Virus record (IMG/VR): IMGVR_UViG_3300029787_000219
Coordinates: 1 to 30,919 of that record
Length of the DNA stretch: 30,919 nucleotides
Source of the DNA: a virus
Reading direction: 5' to 3' (one strand)
Positions 1,334 to 11,497 of this stretch are shown piece by piece. Every line of letters starts with the position of its first letter. Position 1 is the first letter of the stretch. The position numbers and the translations under genes were made by a program. Below the pieces are notes generated by a model. That model searched no databases, was not told where the DNA came from, and was given only the letters and a program-made list of their open reading frames with translations.

Positions 1334-1347
1334 CAACGACACGGTAA
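1334..1347 (+). promoter_or_regulatory. Fourth copy of the CAACGACACGG element, on the plus strand
   Basis: CAACGACACGGTAA at 1334-1347 is identical over 14 bases to the element inside the promoter at 10475-10503 (minus strand there). Unlike the three promoter copies it lacks a recognisable -10 box at the right distance (AGCAGA), so it looks like a binding site rather than a working promoter. Confidence 0.45.
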
Positions 1348-1495
1348 AAAACAGCAGACTGTGCGCGCGCAAGTTATTGATTCCGTAGATTTTTTTCGTC
1401 TATTTAACATAATACCGATTTTTCGTTATTTTTTGGGGGCCCGGCGGGCGACGGGAAAAAGCAAGTTTTATTTACGATCCACGCCGATCGGGCTG

Positions 1496-2023
1496 TTACA
1501 TATCGTTTGACCGCATCTCGTCGTCGACTCCGAGCAGCTGGTTGAGCCGCTGCTTGATGTCTTCCTTCGTCATCTTCTGTAGATCGGCGTTGATGTTTAG
1601 GTTCTGGCTGCGGTGGATCGTCAGCCCAGCCAGCTGGTTCAGCTCCTTAACCGCGCTCACTGCCGCGTTGTAAGCGCCCGTCTCGAACGACGTCTCTGCG
1701 ATCTTCCAGAGCATAGCGCCTGTCTTTTGTGGCGTGATCGCATACTTCTCGCGCAGCTCGTCTTGCTTCACCCGGATCGCCCTGGTCACCTTTGGGAAGT
1801 CTTTCCCGTTGAGCATCTTCGTAGCCGCGCTCGATGGGAACGAAAACCCTGCCCGCCTGGCCGCTTCCGTTTGTCCGCACGCACCCTCAGTGTAATGCCA
1901 AACGAAAGCCGTCTGCATTTCTGTCAGCCCCTGTTCATCATCCGCCTCAAAAAGAGCCGGGATTGGGCTCAGCTGTTGGCGTTGTTTTCTTGGTCGACCG
2001 CGCTTTGGTTTGTCATCAGCCAT
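1496..2023 (-). CDS. terS: Terminase small subunit
   Basis: The 175-residue product begins MADDKPKRGRPRKQRQQ; KRGRPRK resembles an AT-hook. Residues 35-90 then carry the small-terminase helix-turn-helix pattern: TEMQTAFVWHY, GQTEAARRAGF, a serine/alanine-rich turn and a second helix ending in RVKQ. The rest is helical, as expected for oligomerisation. In known phages this subunit binds the packaging site and guides the large terminase. The start is set by AGGAG seven bases before ATG 2023; the frame also opens further upstream, to 2122, but without a comparable site. The large subunit is not found downstream, which is unusual, because a 666-base gap and an endonuclease follow instead. Confidence 0.8.
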   Translation of the reverse strand: MADDKPKRGRPRKQRQQLSPIPALFEADDEQGLTEMQTAFVWHYTEGACGQTEAARRAGFSFPSSAATKMLNGKDFPKVTRAIRVKQDELREKYAITPQKTGAMLWKIAETSFETGAYNAAVSAVKELNQLAGLTIHRSQNLNINADLQKMTKEDIKQRLNQLLGVDDEMRSNDM

Positions 2024-2184
2024 CCACTGCTCCTGAGTATTTTGAACACCTCTCGCGCCATATCCTGCGAATATGGCGCTTGTCCTGCGCTCTCTCGCTC
2101 CTCTGAGTTCATGAGGTGCCATTGCGTAAAGTTATAGCTCTCACTTCTGTTCTCGTCATACACAAATCGCTCACTGATCGTCAT
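1969..2184 (-). CDS. Small hypothetical protein upstream of the small terminase
   Basis: ATG 2184 is preceded by GAGGA with an 8-base spacer, giving 71 residues beginning MTISERFVYDENRSES. A GTG start at 2205 would add seven residues but has no better site. The gene overlaps the small-terminase start by 55 bases in another frame. The protein is polar with no signal peptide or membrane segment; residues 40-60 form a likely amphipathic helix (MAREVFKILRSSGWL). I do not recognise it. Its place just before terS suggests co-transcription. Confidence 0.55.
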   Translation of the reverse strand: MTISERFVYDENRSESYNFTQWHLMNSEERESAGQAPYSQDMAREVFKILRSSGWLMTNQSAVDQENNANS

Positions 2185-2205
2185 ACAGATTGTCCTCTTC
2201 TTCAC

Positions 2206-2395
2206 AGGGTACGGGGTCGAGGGTACAGCGCACTCAAAACTCTTTGAAACTTATACCCGTGTATTACCGCTATATACCTATATATATATTATTATTATTA
2301 TTATTGATTAGTAGTACCCTACCCTACCCTTAGTAATTACCTACTCATATCAATAGCTTACGATCGAACAGACCAGGGTATCATTAGCTATACCC
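2206..2395. other. Origin-like AT-rich region with repeated GGGTA/TACCC motifs
   Basis: This 190-base noncoding stretch holds an AT core at about 2270-2310 made of (TA)n and (ATT)n runs. Around it are eight GGGTA or TACCC pentamers: 2207, 2221, 2254, 2315, 2320, 2325 (three in tandem), 2376 and 2391. The last two form a hairpin, AGGGTAT (2375-2381) with ATACCCT (2390-2396), touching the stop codon of the primase-helicase. Repeated short sites beside an AT-rich unwinding core, next to the replication protein gene, are the usual make-up of a replication origin; the function is inferred. Confidence 0.45.
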
Positions 2396-4552
2396 TCAGA
2401 AGTCTGAACCCCACTTTCCAACGAACTTGTCAGCATTACCCACCTCGACCGGGGTATAGTCCAGATCGTACACTTTTTTACCGTTCGATTTACGAGGCTC
2501 TACCCCGTTATTTGCGAATACCCTGGCTGCGTCTTTAATGTCAGGCATCCTTGGTTGACTGATGCCCAGGTCTCTCAATAGCTTAGTCATTTGGACTGGT
2601 TTAGTGTTCGTACTGTGGAAATGGACGTGCTCGAGAATGAGATCTTCGACGCTCGACTGGGTGCGGTAGTATTCGTTTGAGTCTTGCAACATCTCGCGCT
2701 GGTCATGGTTGAGGAACCAGTCGACCTGGGGATACAGCGACTCCTTCACCTCGGCCCACACTTGCTGCATGTCAAGGCCATGGTTTGCGTTGATGTTAGT
2801 GACCGGAACGACCCAGAAGCGGCGGTTGCCGCTGGTGTCGGTGAGGAACTCCCTGGCGTTCACGCTCGCATAGAAGGCTGTGCGGCGCTGGTAGGTGGTG
2901 CTTGCCCGATCGTACGGTAGCCGCAGCTCGTCACTCTTTTTGGTTACAAAGGCCTTGAGCTGATCAATGTCGGACTTCTTGAAGGTGCTCTCGATCTCGC
3001 CAAGCTCGACGATCCAGTGGCTTACTGCCTGCTTTACGCTATCTTTGTCGCTAGGGTTCAGCGTTGCACCCTCCAGGAGCCAACCTTGCTCGTAGTCAGC
3101 CAGGCGCTTAAACCACAGAGTCTTACCCAGACCTTGGGCGCCTTGGAAAACCAGGATGCCCTCGAGTGCGACACCGTTTGGCTCACACACCGCTGCGACG
3201 CAGCTGACCAGCCATTTGGTCATGAGCATTTCTTTCAGTGGTTCGTTGGAGCTGGTGATCGTATCCAGGAACATCTTCAGCCTAGTGGTGCCGTCCCATG
3301 GTTTCGACTCCATCCACTCCTTCACCGGGTTGTACTCTCGAGCCAGTAGCTTGAGGTAGTCCCGCACCTTTTGGTGCGGCACCCCGATCTGGATACAACG
3401 ATCCTCGATCTCGATCAGCGCGCTTTCGTCCTTCATGTCGGCGATGAAGTCGACGTTAGGGACGCTTATCTCCATGTTCTTCTTTATGACGTTGTACCTC
3501 ACGTCAATCTGGTTGATCGTCAGCACCCCGCGCACGTTCTCCTTGGTGTTCAGAAACCGGCCCTTTTCGGTCTTGTTCCAGTCGAAGTCCACCGGCACGT
3601 CCACACTGTTTAGCTCGGGCATTAACTCGCCCTCGACGGCATGGTCGTTGTAATCACCCTTTGACTGCGGCATGAATACTTCAGCCTGCGATCCCTTGGA
3701 CTTTACGAGCTTAGCGGCTTTGATTGCCTCTCGCTCGCCGGTCTTGCTGTCATCGAAATCAGCGATGAAAACGTGCCTGGCTTTGGGGAAGTAGCGACTG
3801 ATCGTCTCAGCGACCGGGGAGAGATTAAAGGCATCGAAACACACCACCACCGGCTGGCCCAGGTCTGCAAAATAGCTGGCCCCTGTGGCGTAGCCCTCGA
3901 CATAGTTGATCGTGTGAGTGGTGCGCATATTGTCGGGGTCGATCACAAAGAAAGAGCCCTTTTTCTTAGTGCCAGATAGGAATTTTTTGTCGCCATCGCC
4001 GTCGATCAGCTGAAGCCCGACGATTTTCAGGTCTGCATCGAGCACCGGGAGCACCAACCGGCCGTCTTTTGTTTCCCTCAAACCATGGCTTTCGACGCCC
4101 TTGCGAACGAGGTAAGCGTTGGATTCACTGGCCTGTCCGTAGGTATCCCATAGTTTTTTTGCGGTCTCAGCGGCTTTCTTTTGCCGTTTCTCGCGGTCTT
4201 TTCGCGCTTGCTCAGAAAGCCGGGACATTTCTGCCCGCTGCGCGTCAGTCATCTGGTGCTTGCCGTCGTTTTCTGAGCGCCATTTTGCGATCGGCTCGTC
4301 GTTGCTCACGGTGCGATCACCGCAGCGACCGAAAGGTACTTCCTGGTCAAGCCAACACTGATACCACCCGACAAGCTTTTGTTTGCCATCGATCTGCATG
4401 TACGCACGACCGATGTCTCCGCCAATTACAAGCCCTCTTTTGGGGTCTGGAGTCATGCCATGGTCTAGTAAGAAGGACTCGAAATCAGCTCTTAGATCGC
4501 CGCTCAGCGGCCTGCTATGGTTCTTTTTGCTGCCCTCGATCTTAATTGCCAT
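2396..4552 (-). CDS. Toprim primase fused to VirE-type helicase, replication protein
   Basis: The protein has 718 residues. The N-terminal part (about 1-150) is polar with a Lys/Arg-rich helix. A Toprim domain follows at about 165-300, with VEGYATG (Glu219) and ADFDDS (Asp265-Asp267). The C-terminal half is a VirE/P4-type superfamily 3 ATPase: GAQGLGKT Walker A at 471-478, VELGEIE Walker B around 515-521, then ASVN and GNRRFW, with an arginine finger candidate in the last. Such proteins start and unwind DNA for phage or plasmid replication. The start at ATG 4552 has AAGGA five bases ahead; an upstream in-frame ATG at 4612 would run through the divergent promoter and is unlikely. No N-terminal zinc motif is visible. 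The gene ends at the origin-like repeats. Confidence 0.85.
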   Translation of the reverse strand: MAIKIEGSKKNHSRPLSGDLRADFESFLLDHGMTPDPKRGLVIGGDIGRAYMQIDGKQKLVGWYQCWLDQEVPFGRCGDRTVSNDEPIAKWRSENDGKHQMTDAQRAEMSRLSEQARKDREKRQKKAAETAKKLWDTYGQASESNAYLVRKGVESHGLRETKDGRLVLPVLDADLKIVGLQLIDGDGDKKFLSGTKKKGSFFVIDPDNMRTTHTINYVEGYATGASYFADLGQPVVVCFDAFNLSPVAETISRYFPKARHVFIADFDDSKTGEREAIKAAKLVKSKGSQAEVFMPQSKGDYNDHAVEGELMPELNSVDVPVDFDWNKTEKGRFLNTKENVRGVLTINQIDVRYNVIKKNMEISVPNVDFIADMKDESALIEIEDRCIQIGVPHQKVRDYLKLLAREYNPVKEWMESKPWDGTTRLKMFLDTITSSNEPLKEMLMTKWLVSCVAAVCEPNGVALEGILVFQGAQGLGKTLWFKRLADYEQGWLLEGATLNPSDKDSVKQAVSHWIVELGEIESTFKKSDIDQLKAFVTKKSDELRLPYDRASTTYQRRTAFYASVNAREFLTDTSGNRRFWVVPVTNINANHGLDMQQVWAEVKESLYPQVDWFLNHDQREMLQDSNEYYRTQSSVEDLILEHVHFHSTNTKPVQMTKLLRDLGISQPRMPDIKDAARVFANNGVEPRKSNGKKVYDLDYTPVEVGNADKFVGKWGSDF

Positions 4553-4624
4553 GTTTTTCCTTGCATCACTCGTTTGCCCTTGTGCATAATGTTGTAACTT
4601 TATGCAAAACACAAGGACAACGGC
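4553..4624. promoter_or_regulatory. Divergent promoter region with an operator-like inverted repeat
   Basis: Rightward promoter: TTGCAT (4561-4566), 18-base spacer, CATAAT (4585-4590). Leftward: TTGTGT, 17-base spacer, CATTAT. A perfect inverted repeat, TGCATAA (4583-4589), ten bases, TTATGCA (4600-4606), lies over the rightward -10 box and within the leftward promoter. Both flanking genes have good ribosome-binding sites (AAGGA and AAGGAC). This layout would let one dimeric regulator control both replication transcripts. Confidence 0.6.
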
Positions 4625-5314
4625 ATGGCCATATTAGCATCAGACTCGGGGGGTTCTGAATACGAACAGACACCCCAGGGTGAGCACTCAGCGATCTGCT
4701 ACAAGATCGTTGACGCGGGCACCCAGTTAACGGACTTCAAAGGCGAAATCTCGAAGAAGCACAAGCTGTATATCTTTTGGGAGCTGCCTGAATGCCTGCT
4801 CGAGGACGGCCGTCCGATGTCCGAGTTCAAAGAGTACACCTTGAGCTTAGGTGAGCGGTCGAATCTTCGTCGCGATCTACAAATGTGGCGCAACCGGCCG
4901 TTCAGCGAGAAAGAGCTGGCTGGCTTCGATCTGACTGCGATCCTGGGTGTGAGCTGCAAAATCAGCGTTGGTCTGACCAGTGGCGGTCGATCGAAAGTCA
5001 CCGGGGTTTTCAGTGCGGACGGTGGAGCCAAGAAGGTGCCCACAATCAACGAGCAGGTGGTGTTCGACCTCGAGGACTATCTCAAGGAGTTCACTGGCGA
5101 GTCGAATGAGCAGAGCAAAAAGATGTGCGACATCTTCGAGGAGCTGCCGCAGTTCATCCGCTGGGGGATCGCTGGGTGTGATGAGCCTGGCAAGGAGAAG
5201 ATTGAGCCGTGCTTTGAGATGCAAGCAGCTCTGGCCAAGGGCAAAGACAAGCCCGCGTCTGCAACAGCAGCAGACGTCGAGGAAGCTGATTTCGAGGACG
5301 ATATTCCGTTTTAG
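4625..5314 (+). CDS. Phage single-strand DNA-binding-like replication protein
   Basis: The 229-residue protein begins MAILASDSGGSEYEQTPQGE and contains AICYKIVDAGTQ, IFWELPE and EYTLSLGERSNLRRDLQMWR. These blocks match a phage family often labelled NGO0469-like replication initiation or SSB-like protein. The acidic C-terminus, ending DFEDDIPF, is the same kind of tip that bacterial SSB uses to dock partner proteins. It would coat single-stranded DNA during replication and recombination. The start follows AAGGAC by six bases. It is the first gene of the rightward unit and lies opposite the primase-helicase. The assignment rests on motif memory and on the tail; the DNA-binding fold itself is not proven here. 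Confidence 0.65.
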   Translation: MAILASDSGGSEYEQTPQGEHSAICYKIVDAGTQLTDFKGEISKKHKLYIFWELPECLLEDGRPMSEFKEYTLSLGERSNLRRDLQMWRNRPFSEKELAGFDLTAILGVSCKISVGLTSGGRSKVTGVFSADGGAKKVPTINEQVVFDLEDYLKEFTGESNEQSKKMCDIFEELPQFIRWGIAGCDEPGKEKIEPCFEMQAALAKGKDKPASATAADVEEADFEDDIPF

Positions 5315-5322
5315 AGGCAAGC

Positions 5323-5745
5323 ATGAAGCAATACAAAGGTTTGAAATCGCCTAGAGCGCCGGAGCTGCTCAGATACTTCGAGCAGAACCCTGGGTGCGGG
5401 GTGGGCGAGGCGTCGGTGGCTGTAAAAACGCACTACGGGCTCGCGCAGTCAGTTTGGGACGCTATGCAGAACGATCCAGACGAAACCTGGCGGGAGATAC
5501 TGCACAAAAAGGGCGATATGGTGAACTCACCCAGTCACTACGCCTCTGGAGAAATCGAGTGTATCGACGCTATGGTGTCTGCGTTCGGGCTCAAAAGGGT
5601 GCAGGAGTACGCTGAGATCGCCAGCTTCAAATACATATGGAGAGCAGGAAAAAAAGATGATGCGAACCAGGATAAGGCAAAATCGATATGGTATCAGCGG
5701 TTTTCGATGGGCGACGATCCGAGAGGCGATCTTGACCCCAAGTAA
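5323..5745 (+). CDS. DUF3310-type protein with an N-terminal extension
   Basis: The protein has 140 residues. Positions 66-130 carry the DUF3310 signature: VNSPSHYASGEIECIDAM, then FKYIWRAGKKDDANQDKAKS and IWYQ. This short domain is common in phage replication modules and is sometimes labelled nucleotide kinase, but its activity is not settled. The N-terminal 60 residues (LLRYFEQNPGCGVGEASVAV) look like a small helical DNA-binding or regulatory domain fused to it. The start follows GAGG by five bases and lies eight bases after the SSB-like gene, so both share one transcript. Confidence 0.7.
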   Translation: MKQYKGLKSPRAPELLRYFEQNPGCGVGEASVAVKTHYGLAQSVWDAMQNDPDETWREILHKKGDMVNSPSHYASGEIECIDAMVSAFGLKRVQEYAEIASFKYIWRAGKKDDANQDKAKSIWYQRFSMGDDPRGDLDPK

Positions 5746-5746
5746 G

Positions 5747-5839
5747 TTGTGCTCGTCTCGCGGGTTGCCGATCTTTACTGGATACGCCATGCTCGGCGCA
5801 TTCGGATTGGGTCTGGCGATCGGATTCGGTTTAGGCTAA
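5747..5839 (+). CDS. Possible tiny hydrophobic Gly-rich protein
   Basis: An open frame just after the DUF3310 gene ends in MLGAFGLGLAIGFGLG. The ATG at 5789 gives 16 residues; a TTG at 5747 gives 30, adding LCSSRGLPIFTGYA ahead of the same hydrophobic Gly-zipper-like segment. The ribosome-binding site is poor for both. The same frame extends back into the DUF3310 gene, but that part is probably a shadow. The glycine spacing (GxxxGxG) is typical of membrane helices that pack together. It may be a real microprotein or chance. Confidence 0.28.
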   Translation: MCSSRGLPIFTGYAMLGAFGLGLAIGFGLG

Positions 5840-5933
5840 GGGTTCATCACGCCCTCCAACGACGTCCCGTCCGTCGAGCCGAAGGCGGGATTGTTTAGGG
5901 CAGAGGGACTAAACCCACTCTCTCCTGCACGTT

Positions 5934-5970
5934 GCCCAGTCCGTGCGCCCGAAGACTGGGCCTTTTTTTT
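5934..5970 (+). terminator. Intrinsic terminator placed just before a ribosome-binding site
   Basis: GCCCAGTC (5934-5941) pairs perfectly with GACTGGGC (5954-5961), followed by T8 (5963-5970). GGAGA of the exonuclease gene starts at once after the T-run, 12 bases before its ATG. A second small hairpin lies upstream, GTTTAG (5893-5898) with CTAAAC (5909-5914). There is no room for a promoter between the terminator and the gene, so the exonuclease needs read-through. Confidence 0.85.
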
Positions 5971-5981
5971 GGAGAAAAAAT

Positions 5982-6752
5982 ATGGATTTTAAGCCAGGCA
6001 TTCACGAAGACCTCGATTACCCCACCTATGACTCGATCCCAGCTTGGCGATCGCACGATCTGACCTCGATCATTCGTTGTCCGTACACCTGGAAACACCA
6101 GGAGTTTAAGGAATCACCCGCTCTTCTCGAGGGCCGAGTGCAGCACACGGTTTTCCTTGAGCACCACAAATTTTTTGATGAGTATGCGATCGAACCAGTC
6201 GTCGACAAGCGAACCAAAGCAGGGAAGGCCGAGTACGCAGAGTGGCTCGAGGATTTGGGCGATCGCACGCCCTGTAAGCAAGACCTGTACGACGTGTGCA
6301 TGGAACGGCGCAAGGTGGTGGAGGAGTACATACCCAAGCCCGAGCACCGCGTCGAGCTGACCCTGTGCTGGGTCTGGAACGGTCAGCCATGCAAGGGCAA
6401 GCTAGATTGGCATACCGGGACTGACGTGTGGGATCTTAAAACCTGCCGCGACGCATCCGCCAGGGGATTCCGGTCGGCGATCAACTCGTTCAACTATCAC
6501 CAGCAAGCTGCCTATTATCTCAACGGCTGTAGAGCCGTGGGTTTGCCCACAGAGAAGTTTTACTTCCTCGCTCAGGAAAAGGCACACCCTTACCCTTACG
6601 CCGTGTATACGCTCTCTGAAGAAGCCCTGGCGTACGCTGACGCGCGCAATGAACAGGCTATGGCCCTGGCCCTGGAATGTGAGCGGAAAGGGGAGTATCA
6701 GCCATTCAACCAGCAGAGTGTCACCGAGTTCGGCATTGGCGATCTCAGCTGA
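5982..6752 (+). CDS. RecE/exonuclease VIII-type PD-(D/E)XK nuclease
   Basis: The protein has 256 residues. It shows the ordered motifs of the PDDEXK_1 exonuclease family: SIIRCPYTWKH near the start, GRVQH at 51-55, VEL at 124-126, GKLDW at 139-143 (Asp142), VWDLKT at 149-154 (Asp151, Lys153) and YHQQAAYYL at 172-180. Members digest one strand of duplex DNA to give 3' tails for annealing. No RecT or Beta-type annealase is seen, but the SSB-like protein is in the same unit. The start at ATG 5982 is fixed by GGAGA seven bases upstream; the GTG at 5943 lies inside the terminator hairpin. Expression should depend on read-through of that terminator. Confidence 0.78.
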   Translation: MDFKPGIHEDLDYPTYDSIPAWRSHDLTSIIRCPYTWKHQEFKESPALLEGRVQHTVFLEHHKFFDEYAIEPVVDKRTKAGKAEYAEWLEDLGDRTPCKQDLYDVCMERRKVVEEYIPKPEHRVELTLCWVWNGQPCKGKLDWHTGTDVWDLKTCRDASARGFRSAINSFNYHQQAAYYLNGCRAVGLPTEKFYFLAQEKAHPYPYAVYTLSEEALAYADARNEQAMALALECERKGEYQPFNQQSVTEFGIGDLS

Positions 6753-7017
6753 GGATCTAGCCCAGGAAAAAAAATGGGCCGCTGATATCAAATATCATGC
6801 GGCCCGTTCAATCTGGCGCAAGCGCCGAGAGTTTGTACCCAGCAGAAAATACCGCTGGGAGCGTTGGTTTGAGGTTAAGTTTGGAGAGTCTCTCGACGCA
6901 TACGCCGAACGTGCTTCACAAGCGAAAGAGGCGGGCGCCCCATTCGGTCAAGCGCGTCGTCCAGGATCCGATCAATCTGGTCAATCGTCGCGTCGTGATT
7001 CACCACCACCGCGATGA
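6736..7017 (+). CDS. Small basic hypothetical protein after the exonuclease
   Basis: The frame reads AISAEDLAQEKKWAADIKYH and continues with many Arg, Lys and Trp residues through KYRWERWFEVKFGESLDAYA, which looks like a genuine helical protein. The nearest start is TTG 6736, inside the last 17 bases of the exonuclease gene; no ATG is available in frame near it. That gives about 94 residues. The last 20 residues are Ser/Pro/Arg-rich and less protein-like. The 3' part overlaps the opposite-strand gene at 6875-7171 by 143 bases, so one of the two tails may be overcalled. Function unknown. Confidence 0.5.
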   Translation: MAISAEDLAQEKKWAADIKYHAARSIWRKRREFVPSRKYRWERWFEVKFGESLDAYAERASQAKEAGAPFGQARRPGSDQSGQSSRRDSPPPR

Positions 7018-7171
7018 ACAGATCAGCCCAGTCAGGCTCCACCTCCTTGAGATCGGGCAGGTAGAACTGCTCGACGAAATTGAAGAAAACAGTGCGCAGC
7101 TTGTTCGACGTTGAGTAGTCGAATACCGCTGCGGTTGGGTGATTGGTCACAATTTTTTGTGTGGCTTTCAT
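6875..7171 (-). CDS. Hypothetical early protein
   Basis: The product has 98 residues, MKATQKIVTNHPTAAVFDYS at the start, then FVEQFYLPDLKEVEPDWADL and a helix IDQIDRILDDAL. GAGGAG stands nine bases before ATG 7171, which decides against the longer frame from 7282. It is the last gene of the first accessory unit, 13 bases after the 93-residue gene. The protein is mixed helix and strand with no membrane segment; I do not recognise it. Its C-terminal 30 residues overlap a convergent gene. Confidence 0.65.
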   Translation of the reverse strand: MKATQKIVTNHPTAAVFDYSTSNKLRTVFFNFVEQFYLPDLKEVEPDWADLFIAVVVNHDATIDQIDRILDDALDRMGRPPLSLVKHVRRMRRETLQT

Positions 7172-7184
7172 ACGACCAGGCTCC

Positions 7185-7466
7185 TCAGTGCTTGACCGAG
7201 CAGTTGGGACATGGCTCACGACCGCCCTCGAAGACGTTCTTGAAAGCCTCCTCGACGCTGAACTCGATGGTCTTTCGAGCAACCTCCTCTGAGGGCGCTG
7301 CCTCGAAAGCCAGCTCGGAGAAGATTCGCACCGCCTGGAAAATCACCTCTTCTGGCGGCACCTGGGCCTCGCCCATGTTTTCGATCAGATCCAATATGTC
7401 GTCCTGGAACTCGTCGAGTGCCTGGAACTGTTCTTGACCCATTTCGTAATTCGTTTCTTCGCTCAT
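7185..7466 (-). CDS. Small acidic hypothetical protein with a C-terminal CxxC
   Basis: The protein has 93 residues, strongly acidic and helical (QALDEFQDDILDLIENMG), and ends with EPCPNCSVKH, a CxxC pair that could bind metal or form a disulfide. The start is ATG 7466 with AAGGA six bases upstream; a GTG immediately before it is in frame (GTGATG), the same start arrangement as in five neighbouring genes. It follows the LPD29 gene by 36 bases. Acidic small early proteins of phages often bind and inhibit host enzymes, but nothing specific supports that here. Confidence 0.65.
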   Translation of the reverse strand: MSEETNYEMGQEQFQALDEFQDDILDLIENMGEAQVPPEEVIFQAVRIFSELAFEAAPSEEVARKTIEFSVEEAFKNVFEGGREPCPNCSVKH

Positions 7467-7496
7467 CACTTTTCCTTGTTTTTTTGAGGTTGGTAG

Positions 7497-7512
7497 GGCC
7501 GCTTACGCGGCC
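7497..7512. other. Perfect hairpin with a stop codon in its loop
   Basis: GGCCGC (7497-7502) pairs with GCGGCC (7507-7512). The four-base loop TTAC contains the TAA stop of the LPD29 gene, and the right arm encodes its last Glu-Ala-Ala residues. On the plus strand it is followed by TCGTTTTTG, a weak terminator shape; on the gene's own strand no T-run follows. The same hairpin occurs at 9499-9514. Confidence 0.7.
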
Positions 7513-7973
7513 TCGTTTTTGTTGCAATACTCAATGATTGCGGCGCAAGCTTCGCCGAAAGTCATGAACTGCTCTCGGCCGTACAAGATGCCCCTGGCCA
7601 TTTGTTGGTATTGGTATTCAGGATTTGAGTCGTTCACATTGATCTTGTCTTTCAAGATCTCGACCAAGGTCTCAGTGAAAACATCTGCGACCTTGTAATC
7701 GTACTCAATGAACAAGTATTTCGTCTGTGGAATCTCGTCCATGACGTTTGTGTTTTCGTACAGGTCTTGCATCCCGTCGAATTTGCCGTACTGATATATG
7801 GCCAAGTCGTCGTTGATCTCGTTCAAGACCTTGGGATCGATAATCTCTTTGATCTTGACGTTCACACTGTCGCCCATGCTGTAGTTTTTAGAAGTCACAG
7901 AGGCTTTGACACCTTTGGCCTTCATATACTTTCTGATCGCCGCTGCACACTTCGCTGCTTCTGTCTTCATCAT
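7503..7973 (-). CDS. LPD29-domain protein
   Basis: The 156-residue protein starts MMKTEAAKCAAAIRKYMKAK and continues VKASVTSKNYSMGDSVNVKI and YGKFDGMQDLYE. This is the pattern of LPD29, a domain first described in large polyvalent proteins of phages and mobile elements; its molecular role is unknown. Residues 85-150 form a second, helical part ending in NKNEAA. The start is ATG 7973 with AGGAG five bases upstream; an in-frame GTG precedes it. It is the first gene behind the promoter at 8013-8041, and its stop codon sits in a hairpin loop. Confidence 0.7.
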   Translation of the reverse strand: MMKTEAAKCAAAIRKYMKAKGVKASVTSKNYSMGDSVNVKIKEIIDPKVLNEINDDLAIYQYGKFDGMQDLYENTNVMDEIPQTKYLFIEYDYKVADVFTETLVEILKDKINVNDSNPEYQYQQMARGILYGREQFMTFGEACAAIIEYCNKNEAA

Positions 7974-8012
7974 CACTTCTCCTAGTTAATGGGGTCATCC
8001 CCCGACAAAGAT

Positions 8013-8041
8013 ATTGTCTCAAATCACCGTGTCGTTGTCTA
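8013..8041 (-). promoter_or_regulatory. Accessory promoter 1 with CAACGACACGG element
   Basis: On the minus strand: TAGACA (8041-8036), 17-base spacer, GACAAT (8018-8013). The element CAACGACACGG (8037-8027) overlaps the -35 box and the start of the spacer. It points to the LPD29 gene starting at 7973. Promoter geometry and element are the same at 9430-9458 and 10475-10503. Confidence 0.7.
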
Positions 8042-8072
8042 CTTTTTTGTAGATATTTATATACCAATTTAA

Positions 8073-8094
8073 CATAACAAGCGCGCTTCTTATG
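8073..8094. promoter_or_regulatory. Operator-like 22-bp palindrome upstream of promoter 1
   Basis: CATAACAAGCGCGCTTCTTATG is symmetric at all positions except one pair (8078/8089); the central ten bases AAGCGCGCTT are a perfect palindrome. It covers the stop codon of the HD hydrolase gene and lies about 32 bases upstream of the -35 box of promoter 1. With almost no loop it is better read as a protein-binding dyad than as an RNA hairpin. Confidence 0.4.
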
Positions 8095-8545
8095 CCTTGC
8101 CCAAATGCTCCAGCAACTCTTGCTCTCGCAGTTTGTACCTCGCGACCCTGGCTGCATCCTTCTCAGTGAATTCTGTCAGCCTGGTAACATCCAAGTTATC
8201 TTGCAAATCGGCCAACTTGATCCAGGCAGCTGTGTCGTAATCCTTCAATCGGTCGTAATACAAGTCGTTTGGCTCGTGCGGTATCTTGGTCAACAAGGCG
8301 ATCGTGTTTGCCACCTCCTCGCCGAACAAGACCTCGATGTCGCCGATCGTAGCGTCAGTGTCCTCGAGTACATCGTGAAGCACCGCAGCGATCAAACCCT
8401 CGATTGGCAAACCAGGATTCAATTGATGAGCTACGATCATCACTCGGATCGGGTGGAGCACATAAGGCGCCCCACCCTTGTCGACCTGGCCCTCGTGATA
8501 GGTCATCGCGAAGTCGATCGCTCTGATTAAGTCTTTCGTTTCCAT
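8090..8545 (-). CDS. RelA/SpoT-type HD-domain nucleotide hydrolase, Mesh1-like
   Basis: The protein has 151 residues and consists only of the HD hydrolase domain of the RelA/SpoT family: PYVLHPIRV (His31), AAVLHDVLEDT (His57, Asp58, Glu61, Asp62), and WIKLADLQDN (Lys110, Asp113, Asp116, Asn117). No synthetase, TGS or ACT domain is present, as in Mesh1 and small alarmone hydrolases that remove pyrophosphate from ppGpp using a metal ion. The gene is coupled to the PP-loop gene through an ATGATG overlapping its stop; ATG 8545 has the better spacing from GAGG. Plausible roles are blocking the host starvation response or neutralising alarmone-type toxins, as known toxSAS antitoxins do; other nucleotides remain possible. 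Confidence 0.8.
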   Translation of the reverse strand: METKDLIRAIDFAMTYHEGQVDKGGAPYVLHPIRVMIVAHQLNPGLPIEGLIAAVLHDVLEDTDATIGDIEVLFGEEVANTIALLTKIPHEPNDLYYDRLKDYDTAAWIKLADLQDNLDVTRLTEFTEKDAARVARYKLREQELLEHLGKA

Positions 8546-9405
8546 CATGCTGCCTCGTTTAACTCTCCGGCATCGATCGCCGCTTCCCATTCCTGGACGG
8601 TCATCTTCTTGCCGTTGTGTTTCTTGGTGAACAACCTGGCGCCGTTGGCCCAGCTGTCTTTTTTCCACATCCCGTCAGGGGCCCTCCAGCTGATTTTGTG
8701 AACGGGCAATCCGTCCTTGGTCACTGTGGGCTCTGCCGCCTTTCTCAAATTCAAAGGCTGACCAGCGTCCAACCAAGCCTGGTGTTTTCTGGGAGACGCC
8801 TCGCTGAAGTTCTTCTCAACAAGCTTGATTGTCTCCCAAGCCTCTGGATCGTTTCTGATGTCCTTGATCTCCTTGGGGCTCATGAAGGGGCAGAACACAC
8901 AGCTAGACTTGGCGACCTCGACTCCGTACTTGGCCAACAAGTCAACGCAGTCTTGCCTGGTCATCCCCATTTCAACCAAGGGATACTCGTAAATGTTCTT
9001 GTCGCCCTTGGGCTTGGTGAACCTCTCGGTTCTGTGGCCCTCGTCCAACTCGATCCCGATCAAGTAGGTGATCTCTTGGTCGGGGTACTTGGTGTCGATC
9101 CACTTCTGAATCACGTCACCCTTATACTTCTTAGAACAGACGTGGCTCCCGCCGGGCATCACCGGAACGATCCCCAACCTGGTGACCCACTCGGTAATGT
9201 TCTCACCATCCTTGGCGACGATCGTGAACGGCAAGCCAGCATCGGCACACAAGCCTTTGAAGAACTCGACGTTCTCGTAAGTCTTCTTAGACTCGGCTCC
9301 TGTGTCAGCGAAAATGACCTCCTCGATCCCGAGATCCTTCTCCATCAAGTGCATCGTCAAGATCGCACTAGAATCAACACCACCACCGAAAGACAAAATT
9401 TTCAT
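8545..9405 (-). CDS. PP-loop ATPase of the PAPS reductase family
   Basis: The protein has 286 residues. It opens with the ATP pyrophosphatase PP-loop, ILSFGGGVDSSA (residues 3-14), followed by IFADTGAES, VCSKKYKGD (Cys90) and SSCVFCPF (Cys169, Cys172). This cysteine layout is typical of phage and mobile-element PAPS-reductase-like proteins, not of the assimilatory enzyme, which has a single C-terminal Cys. Relatives adenylylate substrates for sulfur transfer, for example in tRNA thiolation or DNA phosphorothioation, so the reaction here is open. The start is ATG 9405 with GAGGAG six bases upstream. It is the first gene behind promoter 2 and is coupled to the HD hydrolase. It ends in -LNEAA. 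Confidence 0.78.
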   Translation of the reverse strand: MKILSFGGGVDSSAILTMHLMEKDLGIEEVIFADTGAESKKTYENVEFFKGLCADAGLPFTIVAKDGENITEWVTRLGIVPVMPGGSHVCSKKYKGDVIQKWIDTKYPDQEITYLIGIELDEGHRTERFTKPKGDKNIYEYPLVEMGMTRQDCVDLLAKYGVEVAKSSCVFCPFMSPKEIKDIRNDPEAWETIKLVEKNFSEASPRKHQAWLDAGQPLNLRKAAEPTVTKDGLPVHKISWRAPDGMWKKDSWANGARLFTKKHNGKKMTVQEWEAAIDAGELNEAA

Positions 9406-9429
9406 CACATTCTCCTCAACAACAAGAGT

Positions 9430-9458
9430 ATTGTCTCATAATCCCGTGTCGTTGTCTA
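9430..9458 (-). promoter_or_regulatory. Accessory promoter 2 with CAACGACACGG element
   Basis: On the minus strand: TAGACA (9458-9453), 17-base spacer, GACAAT (9435-9430), with CAACGACACGG at 9454-9444. The upstream sequence TTGTATAAAAGTG is shared with promoter 3. It drives the PP-loop and HD hydrolase genes. Confidence 0.72.
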
Positions 9459-9498
9459 CACTTTTATACAATTATTTGCACTTTTTTTTGGGAGAAAT

Positions 9499-9514
9499 GG
9501 CCGCTTATGCGGCC
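9499..9514. other. Second perfect hairpin with a stop codon in its loop
   Basis: GGCCGC (9499-9504), loop TTAT, GCGGCC (9509-9514). The loop holds the TAA stop of the 53-residue gene, and the right arm encodes its final Glu-Ala-Ala. Both arms match the hairpin at 7497-7512 exactly. On the plus strand a T-rich run (TTTGTTTTTT) follows after about ten bases. Confidence 0.7.
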
Positions 9515-9666
9515 TCCTCGATTTGTTTTTTGAGAGAAGCGATCACGCGCTCGACCTCATCGATCCTGCTCTGGTGGCCGATGCTCTCGTAATAATCGAG
9601 GTCTCGGTAACAACCATCGAGCGCAGAATGTAACGACTCGATGTATTGCTCTTGCAAATAGTTCAT
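9505..9666 (-). CDS. Small hypothetical helical protein
   Basis: The 53-residue protein MNYLQEQYIESLHSALDGCY continues as an acidic helix and ends RVIASLKKQIEEAA. AGGAGG stands nine bases before ATG 9666, which rules out the longer frame starting at 9687. It is the last gene of the four-gene unit behind promoter 3, one base after the previous stop. It is probably a helical hairpin or short coiled coil. Function unknown; its C-terminal -EEAA and stop-codon hairpin are shared with other early genes. Confidence 0.6.
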   Translation of the reverse strand: MNYLQEQYIESLHSALDGCYRDLDYYESIGHQSRIDEVERVIASLKKQIEEAA

Positions 9667-9667
9667 A

Positions 9668-9925
9668 TTATTTGTCCTCCTCTTCAAACAACCTCAACAC
9701 TTCTCCGTTTGGTTGCCCAAGATCCCCCTTTCGCATCGCAAGAACCTCATCGCGGACAAACTCCCGGTCTATCGTGTCTCCGTCAAAAGGCACGTCGGGA
9801 CGGTTTTTGAGTCGGCGCTCTAAACCCTCCGTCAACTCCTCGCGAGTCATGTTGAAGTCGTAAATACCGCCATCGCCATAAAATTCTAGGCAGTAGTCTA
9901 TAAACTCGATCTTGTTGTTTTCCAT
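9668..9925 (-). CDS. Hypothetical acidic early protein
   Basis: The 85-residue protein begins MENNKIEFIDYCLEFYGDGG and continues with an acidic helical region (TREELTEGLERRL) and DEVLAMRKGDLGQPNGE, ending FEEEDK. ATG 9925 is preceded by AGGAG with seven bases, and this ribosome-binding site lies inside the last codons of the preceding gene. No recognisable domain. Part of the promoter 3 unit. Confidence 0.65.
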   Translation of the reverse strand: MENNKIEFIDYCLEFYGDGGIYDFNMTREELTEGLERRLKNRPDVPFDGDTIDREFVRDEVLAMRKGDLGQPNGEVLRLFEEEDK

Positions 9926-9926
9926 A

Positions 9927-10181
9927 TCACTTCTCCTGTTTAGGCTTCACTACTTTTTTGTTGAAGAGCTTCTCAGCCTCAACGAACGGCATACCTGCCA
10001 CCGCCATTGCTTGAAGCTCTTTGTTGGGTTGATTGCGATACTGCTCACAGAGTCGCCATTTAGTGACGGTGTGACCTCGCTCGTAATTTTTGGATTCCGC
10101 GATTACGATGAATCCCTCGCCTCGCTTGACGACCGCAAACCGCTTGCCGGTTTTGTTTGATCCCAATCGATATGCTTTCAT
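9927..10181 (-). CDS. Hypothetical basic early protein
   Basis: The 84-residue protein MKAYRLGSNKTGKRFAVVKR has a beta-rich first half (RFAVVKRGEGFIVIAESKNY) and a helical second half with a Lys-rich end (FNKKVVKPKQEK). The start ATG 10181 follows GGAG by five bases, with the in-frame GTG just ahead. It is separated from the first gene of its unit by two hairpins at 10205-10241. Function unknown; the basic surface would fit nucleic acid binding. Confidence 0.62.
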   Translation of the reverse strand: MKAYRLGSNKTGKRFAVVKRGEGFIVIAESKNYERGHTVTKWRLCEQYRNQPNKELQAMAVAGMPFVEAEKLFNKKVVKPKQEK

Positions 10182-10204
10182 CACTTCTCCATTTGGTTAT
10201 CCAA

Positions 10205-10241
10205 GACCCCCGGAGGGGTTTCGACCAGGCACCACCTGGTC
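10205..10241. other. Tandem hairpins between early genes
   Basis: GACCAGG (10223-10229) pairs with CCTGGTC (10235-10241) around a 5-base loop. A few bases downstream on the transcribed minus strand, ACCCC and GGGGT (10205-10219) form a second stem with a CGGA loop. Neither is followed by a T-run, so they look more like processing or stability elements than terminators. Confidence 0.5.
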
Positions 10242-10253
10242 TCGTCAGTTAAA

Positions 10254-10451
10254 TTAAGCGGCCTCCTCCATCGCATCGAACAGCTCATCGAACATGTCAA
10301 ACTCGTCACCGGTAGGCTTGGCGTACTTGCCTTTCTTGACCAGCCCTTCCAAGAACTCTGCCATCTCAGCGGTCATCTTGGCGGGAGATGCCTCGGCAAT
10401 CTTCACCATGTCGTTTCGGGTCATTTCGTTGATCTTAAGTATTAACATCAT
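10254..10451 (-). CDS. Small hypothetical early protein
   Basis: The 65-residue protein MMLILKINEMTRNDMVKIAE is helical with an acidic C-terminal half (DEFDMFDELFDAMEEAA). The start at ATG 10451 follows GAGGAG by five bases; a second ATG and a preceding GTG are in frame, so GTGATGATG is ambiguous by one codon either way. It is the first gene behind promoter 3. No known domain; size and charge fit a host-interaction protein, without direct support. Confidence 0.65.
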   Translation of the reverse strand: MMLILKINEMTRNDMVKIAEASPAKMTAEMAEFLEGLVKKGKYAKPTGDEFDMFDELFDAMEEAA

Positions 10452-10474
10452 CACTTCTCCTCAATTACGAAGTA

Positions 10475-10503
10475 ATTATGGCATATTACCGTGTCGTTGT
10501 CTA
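10475..10503 (-). promoter_or_regulatory. Accessory promoter 3 with CAACGACACGG element
   Basis: On the minus strand: TAGACA (10503-10498), 17-base spacer, CATAAT (10480-10475), with CAACGACACGG at 10499-10489. Of the three this has the best -10 box. It drives four small genes ending at 9505. Confidence 0.75.
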
Positions 10504-10537
10504 CACTTTTATACAAATAATTTGAATTATTTTTCGC

Positions 10538-11251
10538 TCAAACAAGCTCTTCGTAGTTCTCGACCAGGCGTCTCTTGTTGTGTAGCCAGAAGACCAGGAG
10601 GTATCGATCACCGCTCTCAACCGCCAGGCCACGGTGCAGATTTGTGAAGCTAGGGAAAATTAGCGCGTGTCCGCTAGGCAGCGGGTTCAGCACGCCATGG
10701 TTATGGAACTCAGTGCCACCGCCCTTGTACTCGTCAGTGTTCAGCGGAACCACAACGCTGATGTCGGCGCTCTCGTCATGGTGCCAGGCGCCTTTCTGTT
10801 TGTCTTTAGGATTATAGTTCGCGATCTGAATCGATGCGACGTCGTGACAGTCGCGCTGATACAGGCTGTAAAAGATCGGGTTCAACACGTTCTGAACGAC
10901 GAACCACATATTACGGTACAGCTCCGGGACGTGATCGCGCAGAACAATCTCAGGGATCTGACGCAGCTCGTCCTCATCCTCGTTCACCTGGAACACGATC
11001 TCGCTTTCCATGTGCTTGATCTCCTCCACCAGCATCTTGCAAAACTGTCGGCGAAACAGCGGCACTCGATAGACGTCCGGGAATATCTTCTTACAGAGCT
11101 GCTGCGCTGGGGTGCGCGGCATACGGTTCACACCTTCCTTGGTACGGTACTCCGCGATCAACGGAACAGTCTCTTGCACGGCCTTGTAGAGGGGTTGGTT
11201 TATGAACCAATGCGACTGCATTGATAACATATAGTTTTTAATCTCGTACAT
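10538..11251 (-). CDS. 2-oxoglutarate/Fe(II)-dependent oxygenase
   Basis: The protein has 237 residues. The double-stranded beta-helix core lies in the C-terminal 100: His157 and Asp159 (AWHHDESADISVVVPL) give the HxD iron ligands, His206 (NLHRGLAV) the third, and Arg216 (SGDRYLLVFWL) the 2-oxoglutarate anchor. The N-terminal half is helical and not recognised. Such enzymes are common in aquatic phages and may hydroxylate protein, nucleobases or small molecules; the substrate is unknown. No Shine-Dalgarno site precedes ATG 11251, and a TATAAG box ends only eight bases upstream, so the message may be leaderless. It lies divergent from the regulator at 11300. Confidence 0.8.
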   Translation of the reverse strand: MYEIKNYMLSMQSHWFINQPLYKAVQETVPLIAEYRTKEGVNRMPRTPAQQLCKKIFPDVYRVPLFRRQFCKMLVEEIKHMESEIVFQVNEDEDELRQIPEIVLRDHVPELYRNMWFVVQNVLNPIFYSLYQRDCHDVASIQIANYNPKDKQKGAWHHDESADISVVVPLNTDEYKGGGTEFHNHGVLNPLPSGHALIFPSFTNLHRGLAVESGDRYLLVFWLHNKRRLVENYEELV

Positions 11252-11299
11252 TGCACAATCTTATACAATCTTGTAGAATCAAGCAATTATACAACGGGC
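11252..11299. promoter_or_regulatory. Short divergent promoter region, possibly leaderless both ways
   Basis: In 48 bases there is a leftward TATAAG (11265-11260) and a rightward TATACA (11288-11293), each six to eight bases from the start codon it serves. TTATACAA occurs twice (11261-11268 and 11287-11294). No convincing -35 box stands at 17 bases for either. The same TTATACAA is found beside promoters 2 and 3. Confidence 0.45.
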
Positions 11300-11497
11300 A
11301 TGGGTATGGAAGACCAGGCAGAAATAGACGAACAAGCGCAGGCCAGTAAGACTGCGCGCAAGTCGCTGGCGATCGACACCGACACTTACGAGATGTTACG
11401 GGATATCTGTAACCATGAGGGTCGCACGCTCATCGCTCAGCTCAAGCGCATGATTGACCAAGAGCACCAACGCTTGTTCAGAGACGAATACCATTGA
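11300..11497 (+). CDS. Ribbon-helix-helix-like DNA-binding protein
   Basis: The 65-residue protein has an acidic start (MGMEDQAEIDEQAQ) and then KSLAIDTDTYEMLRDICNHE followed by RTLIAQLKRMIDQ. A short strand with alternating residues followed by two helices of this length is the ribbon-helix-helix pattern of Arc/CopG regulators, which bind operators as dimers through the strand. ATG 11300 or 11306 could be the start; neither has a clear Shine-Dalgarno site. It may regulate the divergent oxygenase and itself, perhaps through the TTATACAA repeats, but this is inferred. Confidence 0.62.
   Translation: MGMEDQAEIDEQAQASKTARKSLAIDTDTYEMLRDICNHEGRTLIAQLKRMIDQEHQRLFRDEYH

Follow-up and report, generated by a model that had tools for sequence, protein, structure and literature searches.

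A conserved box over the -35 element and spacer of promoters in a clade of uncultured phages: a predicted operator with p78 as candidate regulator

Results

Promoters and gene units of the window

The DNA analysed (the window) is a 31-kb fragment of an uncultured virus of bacteria, comprising 30,919 nt (positions 1-30,919) of IMG/VR virus record IMGVR_UViG_3300029787_000219. A 2OG-Fe(II) oxygenase-like gene at 10538-11251 on the minus strand is a syntenic anchor across the clade, and promoter 3 (10475-10517, minus strand) lies just behind it. This promoter consists of the UP-like tract TTTGTATAAAA at 10517-10507, the -35 element TAGACA at 10503-10498, the 11-base box CAACGACACGG at 10499-10489, a TG and the -10 element CATAAT at 10480-10475, and it heads a unit whose first gene encodes 66 amino acids (10454-10254). 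Many relatives have an equivalent promoter in this position relative to the oxygenase gene. Promoter 2 (9430-9473, minus strand), with an A/T tract, TAGACA at 9458-9453, the box at 9454-9444, TG and GACAAT at 9435-9430, heads a PAPS-reductase-like gene (9408-8545) and an HD phosphohydrolase gene, and is kept in relatives L019, L023, L011 and L037. The two genes form a single box-driven unit (9408-8090, minus strand), which is present only in some relatives. Promoter 1 (8013-8060, minus strand), with an A/T tract, TAGACA at 8041-8036, the box at 8037-8027, TG and GACAAT at 8018-8013, heads a gene encoding 157 amino acids (7976-7503).

Exact copies of the 11-mer were found at 8027-8037, 9444-9454 and 10489-10499 on the minus strand and at 1334-1344 on the plus strand, which bears out the four copies claimed by an earlier, sequence-only reading of this DNA. 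First-order Markov resamplings of the window gave an expectation of 0.017 exact copies per window, and the four copies seen are therefore not due to chance. The overlap of the three minus-strand copies with TAGACA was verified as well, as were the -10 elements 17 bases further on (GACAAT, GACAAT and CATAAT, respectively). The three promoters had been described as identical; this holds for box, -35 element and spacing, while the remaining sequence is merely similar. Promoters 1, 2 and 3 are of a strong sigma70 type with an A/T-rich UP-like tract, TAGACA and an extended -10 in which TG precedes the hexamer; the two hexamers, expected 16-18 bp apart in sigma70-type promoters, are separated by 17 bp in the window and by 16-17 bp at related sites. 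An independent promoter scan of the window also selected these three promoters. With a position weight matrix built from a 107-site set (described below) that contains the window sites and close relatives, they scored 52-64 bits, compared to 1.2 for the fourth copy and -4 for the next site in the window.

The fourth copy (1334-1344, plus strand) lies in a noncoding gap of 665 bases between the nuclease and TerS-like genes (830-1495). It shares the 14-base match CAACGACACGGTAA with the 10.5-kb copy, as had been noted. It has neither a -10 element nor an A/T tract, it is absent from the syntenic gap of four relatives (G014, G004, G005 and G022), and an Rfam search of the window including the gap gave no match. 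The proposal that this copy titrates the regulator finds no support, given its missing promoter features and its lack of conservation in the matching gap of the four relatives; the copy is probably a chance occurrence or a relic.

The box in related phages

An exact 16-base scan of IMG/VR returned 36 stretches, a good part of which were chance matches without promoter context; the others had the same frame, in phages with differing gene content. In whole-contig searches, sites were found in 24 of 32 contigs, compared to no matches in the same 32 contigs with a reversed-pattern control. After refinement, the scans yielded 107 distinct promoters from 66 loci, among which the core CGACACG was invariant; shuffled cores passed through the same filter gave 0-6 (eight tests, seven distinct cores). 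Once later loci were added the set grew to 152 sites, including at least one likely chance match in a bacterial contig; these sites head 67 first-gene families in one clade of uncultured phages, and the median distance from box to start codon is 54 bases. Many of the contigs are fragments or near-copies, and these counts do not represent independent events.

The consensus promoter comprises an A/T-rich tract with TTTG(T/C)(A/G)(T/C)AAA, a -35 element T..ACA, the box (A/T)CGACACG(G), approximately 7-8 bases with TG, and the -10 element. Two -35 classes, TAGACA-like and TTGCACA, carry the same box, and the variants TAGACA, TGTACA, TATACA and TTGCACA all retain ACA and the box. The T, A, C and A of T..ACA are each retained in at least 103 of the 107 sites, and the box is centred at about -26. 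A lack of conservation in relatives beyond the -35 and -10 boxes had been named as an outcome that would speak against a control element; in related phages the box proved more strictly conserved than either. A palindrome, GTGT..ACAC, surrounds the box at only some class I sites. Of 49 literature matches to box 11-mers, the ten listed appear to be chance occurrences in unrelated papers. These findings show that the shared element proposed from the window is a genuine conserved spacer box heading accessory-gene units. They also suggest that the 11-mer is part of a clade-wide operator box, ACA(A/T)CGACACG(G), situated in the 3' half of the -35 element and the spacer.

The box-bearing contigs have a set of early and structural genes in common, and the structural genes match those of the cultured phages HTVC027P, HTVC023P, DSL-LC04 and 023Pt_psg01 at roughly 30-60% identity. 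The element was not found in DSL-LC04 and HTVC027P, searched whole, nor in HTVC023P and 023Pt_psg01, searched over their first 30 kb.

Replacement of the box in two groups

When 80 loci were retrieved with the oxygenase protein family alone, a box promoter was present 25-80 bp behind the oxygenase gene in most of them. In group X (five loci: L043, L172 and L175-L177) the -35, -10 and leader at this place are the same and the spacer differs, as in TGTAGACACCAAGGGTTGTTTTTGAGATAC. Group Y (L192-L194, L196-L198 and L200) also keeps the place and the promoter frame, and the sequence there is TTGCACATTTGTRYAYATNTGTTATTAT. In the midpoint-rooted oxygenase tree, group X is nested in the box-bearing clade beside L011, L042 and L184 (support 100/99), and group Y is placed beside G022 (support 96/94). 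From these positions the box has been replaced at least once, perhaps twice, and since both groups keep the frame with another sequence in it, the box behaves as a swappable operator.

Downstream of the start region, many box promoters have a short hairpin. In the window, GGGG-AUGA-CCCC follows promoter 1 (7990-8012, minus strand), and further examples occur in L156, L026, L146, L159 and L006. The stems differ and keep their pairing (GGGG-AUGA-CCCC, GGGAGG/CCUCCC, GGCGGG/CCCGCC and GUCGAG/CUCGAC). The scan pattern itself is too loose, and the hairpins were taken only from behind recognised promoters. Because group X has the hairpin too, it is independent of the box.

The RHH protein of the window

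The gene at 11300-11497 (plus strand), divergent from the oxygenase gene, encodes a 65-amino-acid protein of the ribbon-helix-helix (RHH) fold (Arc/CopG/PutA-like). The strand-helix-helix fold was confirmed by fold comparison, in which the leading matches were nearly all RHH proteins, with Z up to 6.1 over 48 residues. The contact strand RKSLAVD is identical in the canonical phages and in the box-less group Y, and altered only in group X. Repeats phased at 10 bp (GATTCTACAA/GATTGTATAA/GATTGTGCAA, minus strand) lie between the oxygenase and RHH genes at 11251-11300 and are also present in relatives; they are possibly an autoregulatory site of the RHH protein. Group X has a GTTGCAAC-like form of the repeat motif, together with a K to R change in the RHH strand. 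TTGYRYAA-like repeats phased at 10 bp were seen in both the intergenic region and class I promoters; as the steps are 12 and 8 bp in class II and group Y promoters, a tandem-repeat site of the RHH protein is no more than a lead.

p78, a protein that accompanies the box

The gene for p78, a basic protein of 77-78 amino acids, lies outside the 31-kb window, which does not contain the p78 region. In a comparison of gene content that took in the genes of two near-complete box contigs, p78 was the one gene tested that all six near-complete box contigs contain and that groups X and Y lack; the only other entry flagged was an antisense ORF overlapping p78. The p78 gene is located shortly upstream of a gene for a serine recombinase. 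The contigs of groups X and Y hold the recombinase gene, and p78 was not seen upstream of it. In all groups the recombinase gene adjoins a repetitive GWG-rich fibre-like gene (L102:1246-2781, L208:3744-5606 and others), suggesting possible fibre inversion or exchange.

The p78 operon begins with a box promoter. Among 80 p78 loci retrieved by protein, without reference to the box, 63 had enough upstream DNA; in 53 of these a box promoter on the same strand lay no more than 2.6 kb away, mostly approximately 320 bp upstream, and the other 10 have a version of the box that was filtered out because of 1-2 mismatches or its flanking sequence. None of the 63 loci was found with any of 12 shuffled cores. 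Box and p78 occurred together in 26 of 47 contigs, the box alone in 17 (all shorter than 36 kb), neither in four and p78 alone in none. The first gene of the operon often encodes a small conserved protein (about 82 amino acids, motif LLPGLF; L034:2336-2581 and 24 other sites), which was not detected in all groups. At three loci a variant box, TAGACACGG, upstream of p78 accompanies a change of KDG to KGG in p78 (L239:5452-5682, L244:2599-2829 and L277:1970-2200); this pairing was discarded, as a fourth locus with a variant box, L296, does not have the change.

No family was assigned to p78 in Pfam, PHROGs or NCBIfam, no convincing relative was found in the PDB by sequence, and there was no match in 50,697 phage records. 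Its predicted structure is alpha-beta-beta-beta-alpha (pLDDT 87). Double-stranded RNA-binding domains led the list in the fold search, with weak scores (Z of at most 5.6; Foldseek E above 0.6), and known DNA-binding folds were not matched by the model in the fold searches.

Discussion

The findings are best explained, with a probability of roughly 60%, by a clade-wide operator box, a phage regulator, p78, and gene units that would be switched together. Conservation, promoter frame, distribution, replacement in two sub-groups, operon position and co-occurrence are read directly from the sequences; what we infer is binding at the box, p78 as the protein bound there, the sign of the control and the early timing of the units. 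The box promoters head many exchangeable gene units, probably early or accessory, and a phage-encoded protein would bind the box and switch all of these units together. It is likely that the box is the site of a trans-acting phage regulator. With its operon under a box promoter, p78 would regulate itself, and as it accumulates it would repress the early units through the box over the -35 element and spacer.

The identity of the regulator is the more tentative part, and p78 as the reader of the box comes a little short of even odds. Independent losses of box and p78 number only one to two, and the profile could reflect shared ancestry; p78 could also be merely one more box-driven target, the other small genes of its operon may be candidates too, and because the window fragment does not include the p78 region, p78 was not seen in this very phage.

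Repression is somewhat favoured over activation, because the box overlaps the -35 element and spacer of promoters that already have strong parts for the host polymerase. Such promoters, which combine strong features of the T4 early type with a box over the -35 element and spacer, and a box that heads the operon of the putative regulator would fit an autorepressor. An activating role, with a factor bound in the spacer as at the MotA box, is the less probable of the two. In T4 middle promoters the MotA box is centred at -30 (PMC2988021), and the MotA-AsiA system resembles the present one in that a box specific to the phage occupies the -35/spacer region of sigma70 promoters. It differs in that the box promoters keep their -35 as T..ACA, the box being centred at about -26 and not replacing the -35 element at -30, and in that p78 belongs to no known family.

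Alternatively, the box may form part of a longer sequence recognised by the host RNA polymerase or a phage-modified one, so that a separate regulator would be unnecessary. T4 early promoters, with their UP/-35/TGn/-10 arrangement and extra consensus (PMC2988021), provide a precedent, and like the box promoters they have a strong sigma70 frame, an UP-like tract, an extended -10 and many similar copies. By the position table of the 107 sites, the box promoters share these T4 early-type traits, all of the sites having an A/T-rich upstream tract in the promoter frame and most an extended -10. However, the spacer from -29 to -21 is near invariant while the TTG of the -35 that sigma contacts varies, and in groups X and Y the frame is combined with different spacers, which makes this explanation unlikely. 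Neither an invariant spacer box of 9-11 bp nor a swappable one is known to us from descriptions of T4 early promoters.

P22 Arc and plasmid CopG are small RHH autoregulators whose operators overlap promoters. The window likewise encodes an RHH protein, and its binding to the box, as Arc and CopG bind operators at or near -35, had been proposed. Its fold, the nearness of its gene to box promoters, its conservation across groups and the change of both its strand (RKSL to RR[SN]L) and the operator region in group X accord with that proposal. Nevertheless, the protein occurs in groups with and without the box, its strand is unchanged in group Y, and the divergent intergenic region of its own gene contains no box. 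The protein thus does not track the box, and p78 is not an RHH protein; we doubt strongly that the RHH protein is the reader.

A host transcription factor whose site the phages exploit is improbable, even though CtrA sites recur at many promoters of phages of Alphaproteobacteria (PMC9437464), where, as here, one regulator site is repeated at many phage promoters. CtrA is the regulator of the host, whereas no host regulon with the box was found: a strict search for the pattern within a promoter frame gave only four matches in 84,980 species genomes (GTDB), about the chance level, and the box is common to phages of very different base composition. Recent duplication of one cassette, without selected control function, is very improbable: promoters are alike within a contig, but flanks and N positions have diverged around a core that stays invariant in many lineages and in front of 67 gene families.

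Beyond the favoured reading of an operator box and a phage regulator lies a bolder and doubtful one, in which p78 would be the founding member of a new family of phage regulators that are sequence-specific and have a fold with a three-stranded sheet, one that is not known among bacterial transcription factors. By reading the spacer box, p78 would govern interchangeable early units across the clade as one network coupled through their promoters, and in sister groups rival pairs of box and regulator would take its place, much like the immunity groups of phages.

In this clade of uncultured phages, which is widespread and aquatic, the box promoter signature would mark early gene units, and the many accessory genes without known function may be found by their control instead of by homology. 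A small protein of no known family, p78, is put forward as the leading candidate to read the box, and the sister groups in which the box has been naturally replaced would offer a ready specificity series.
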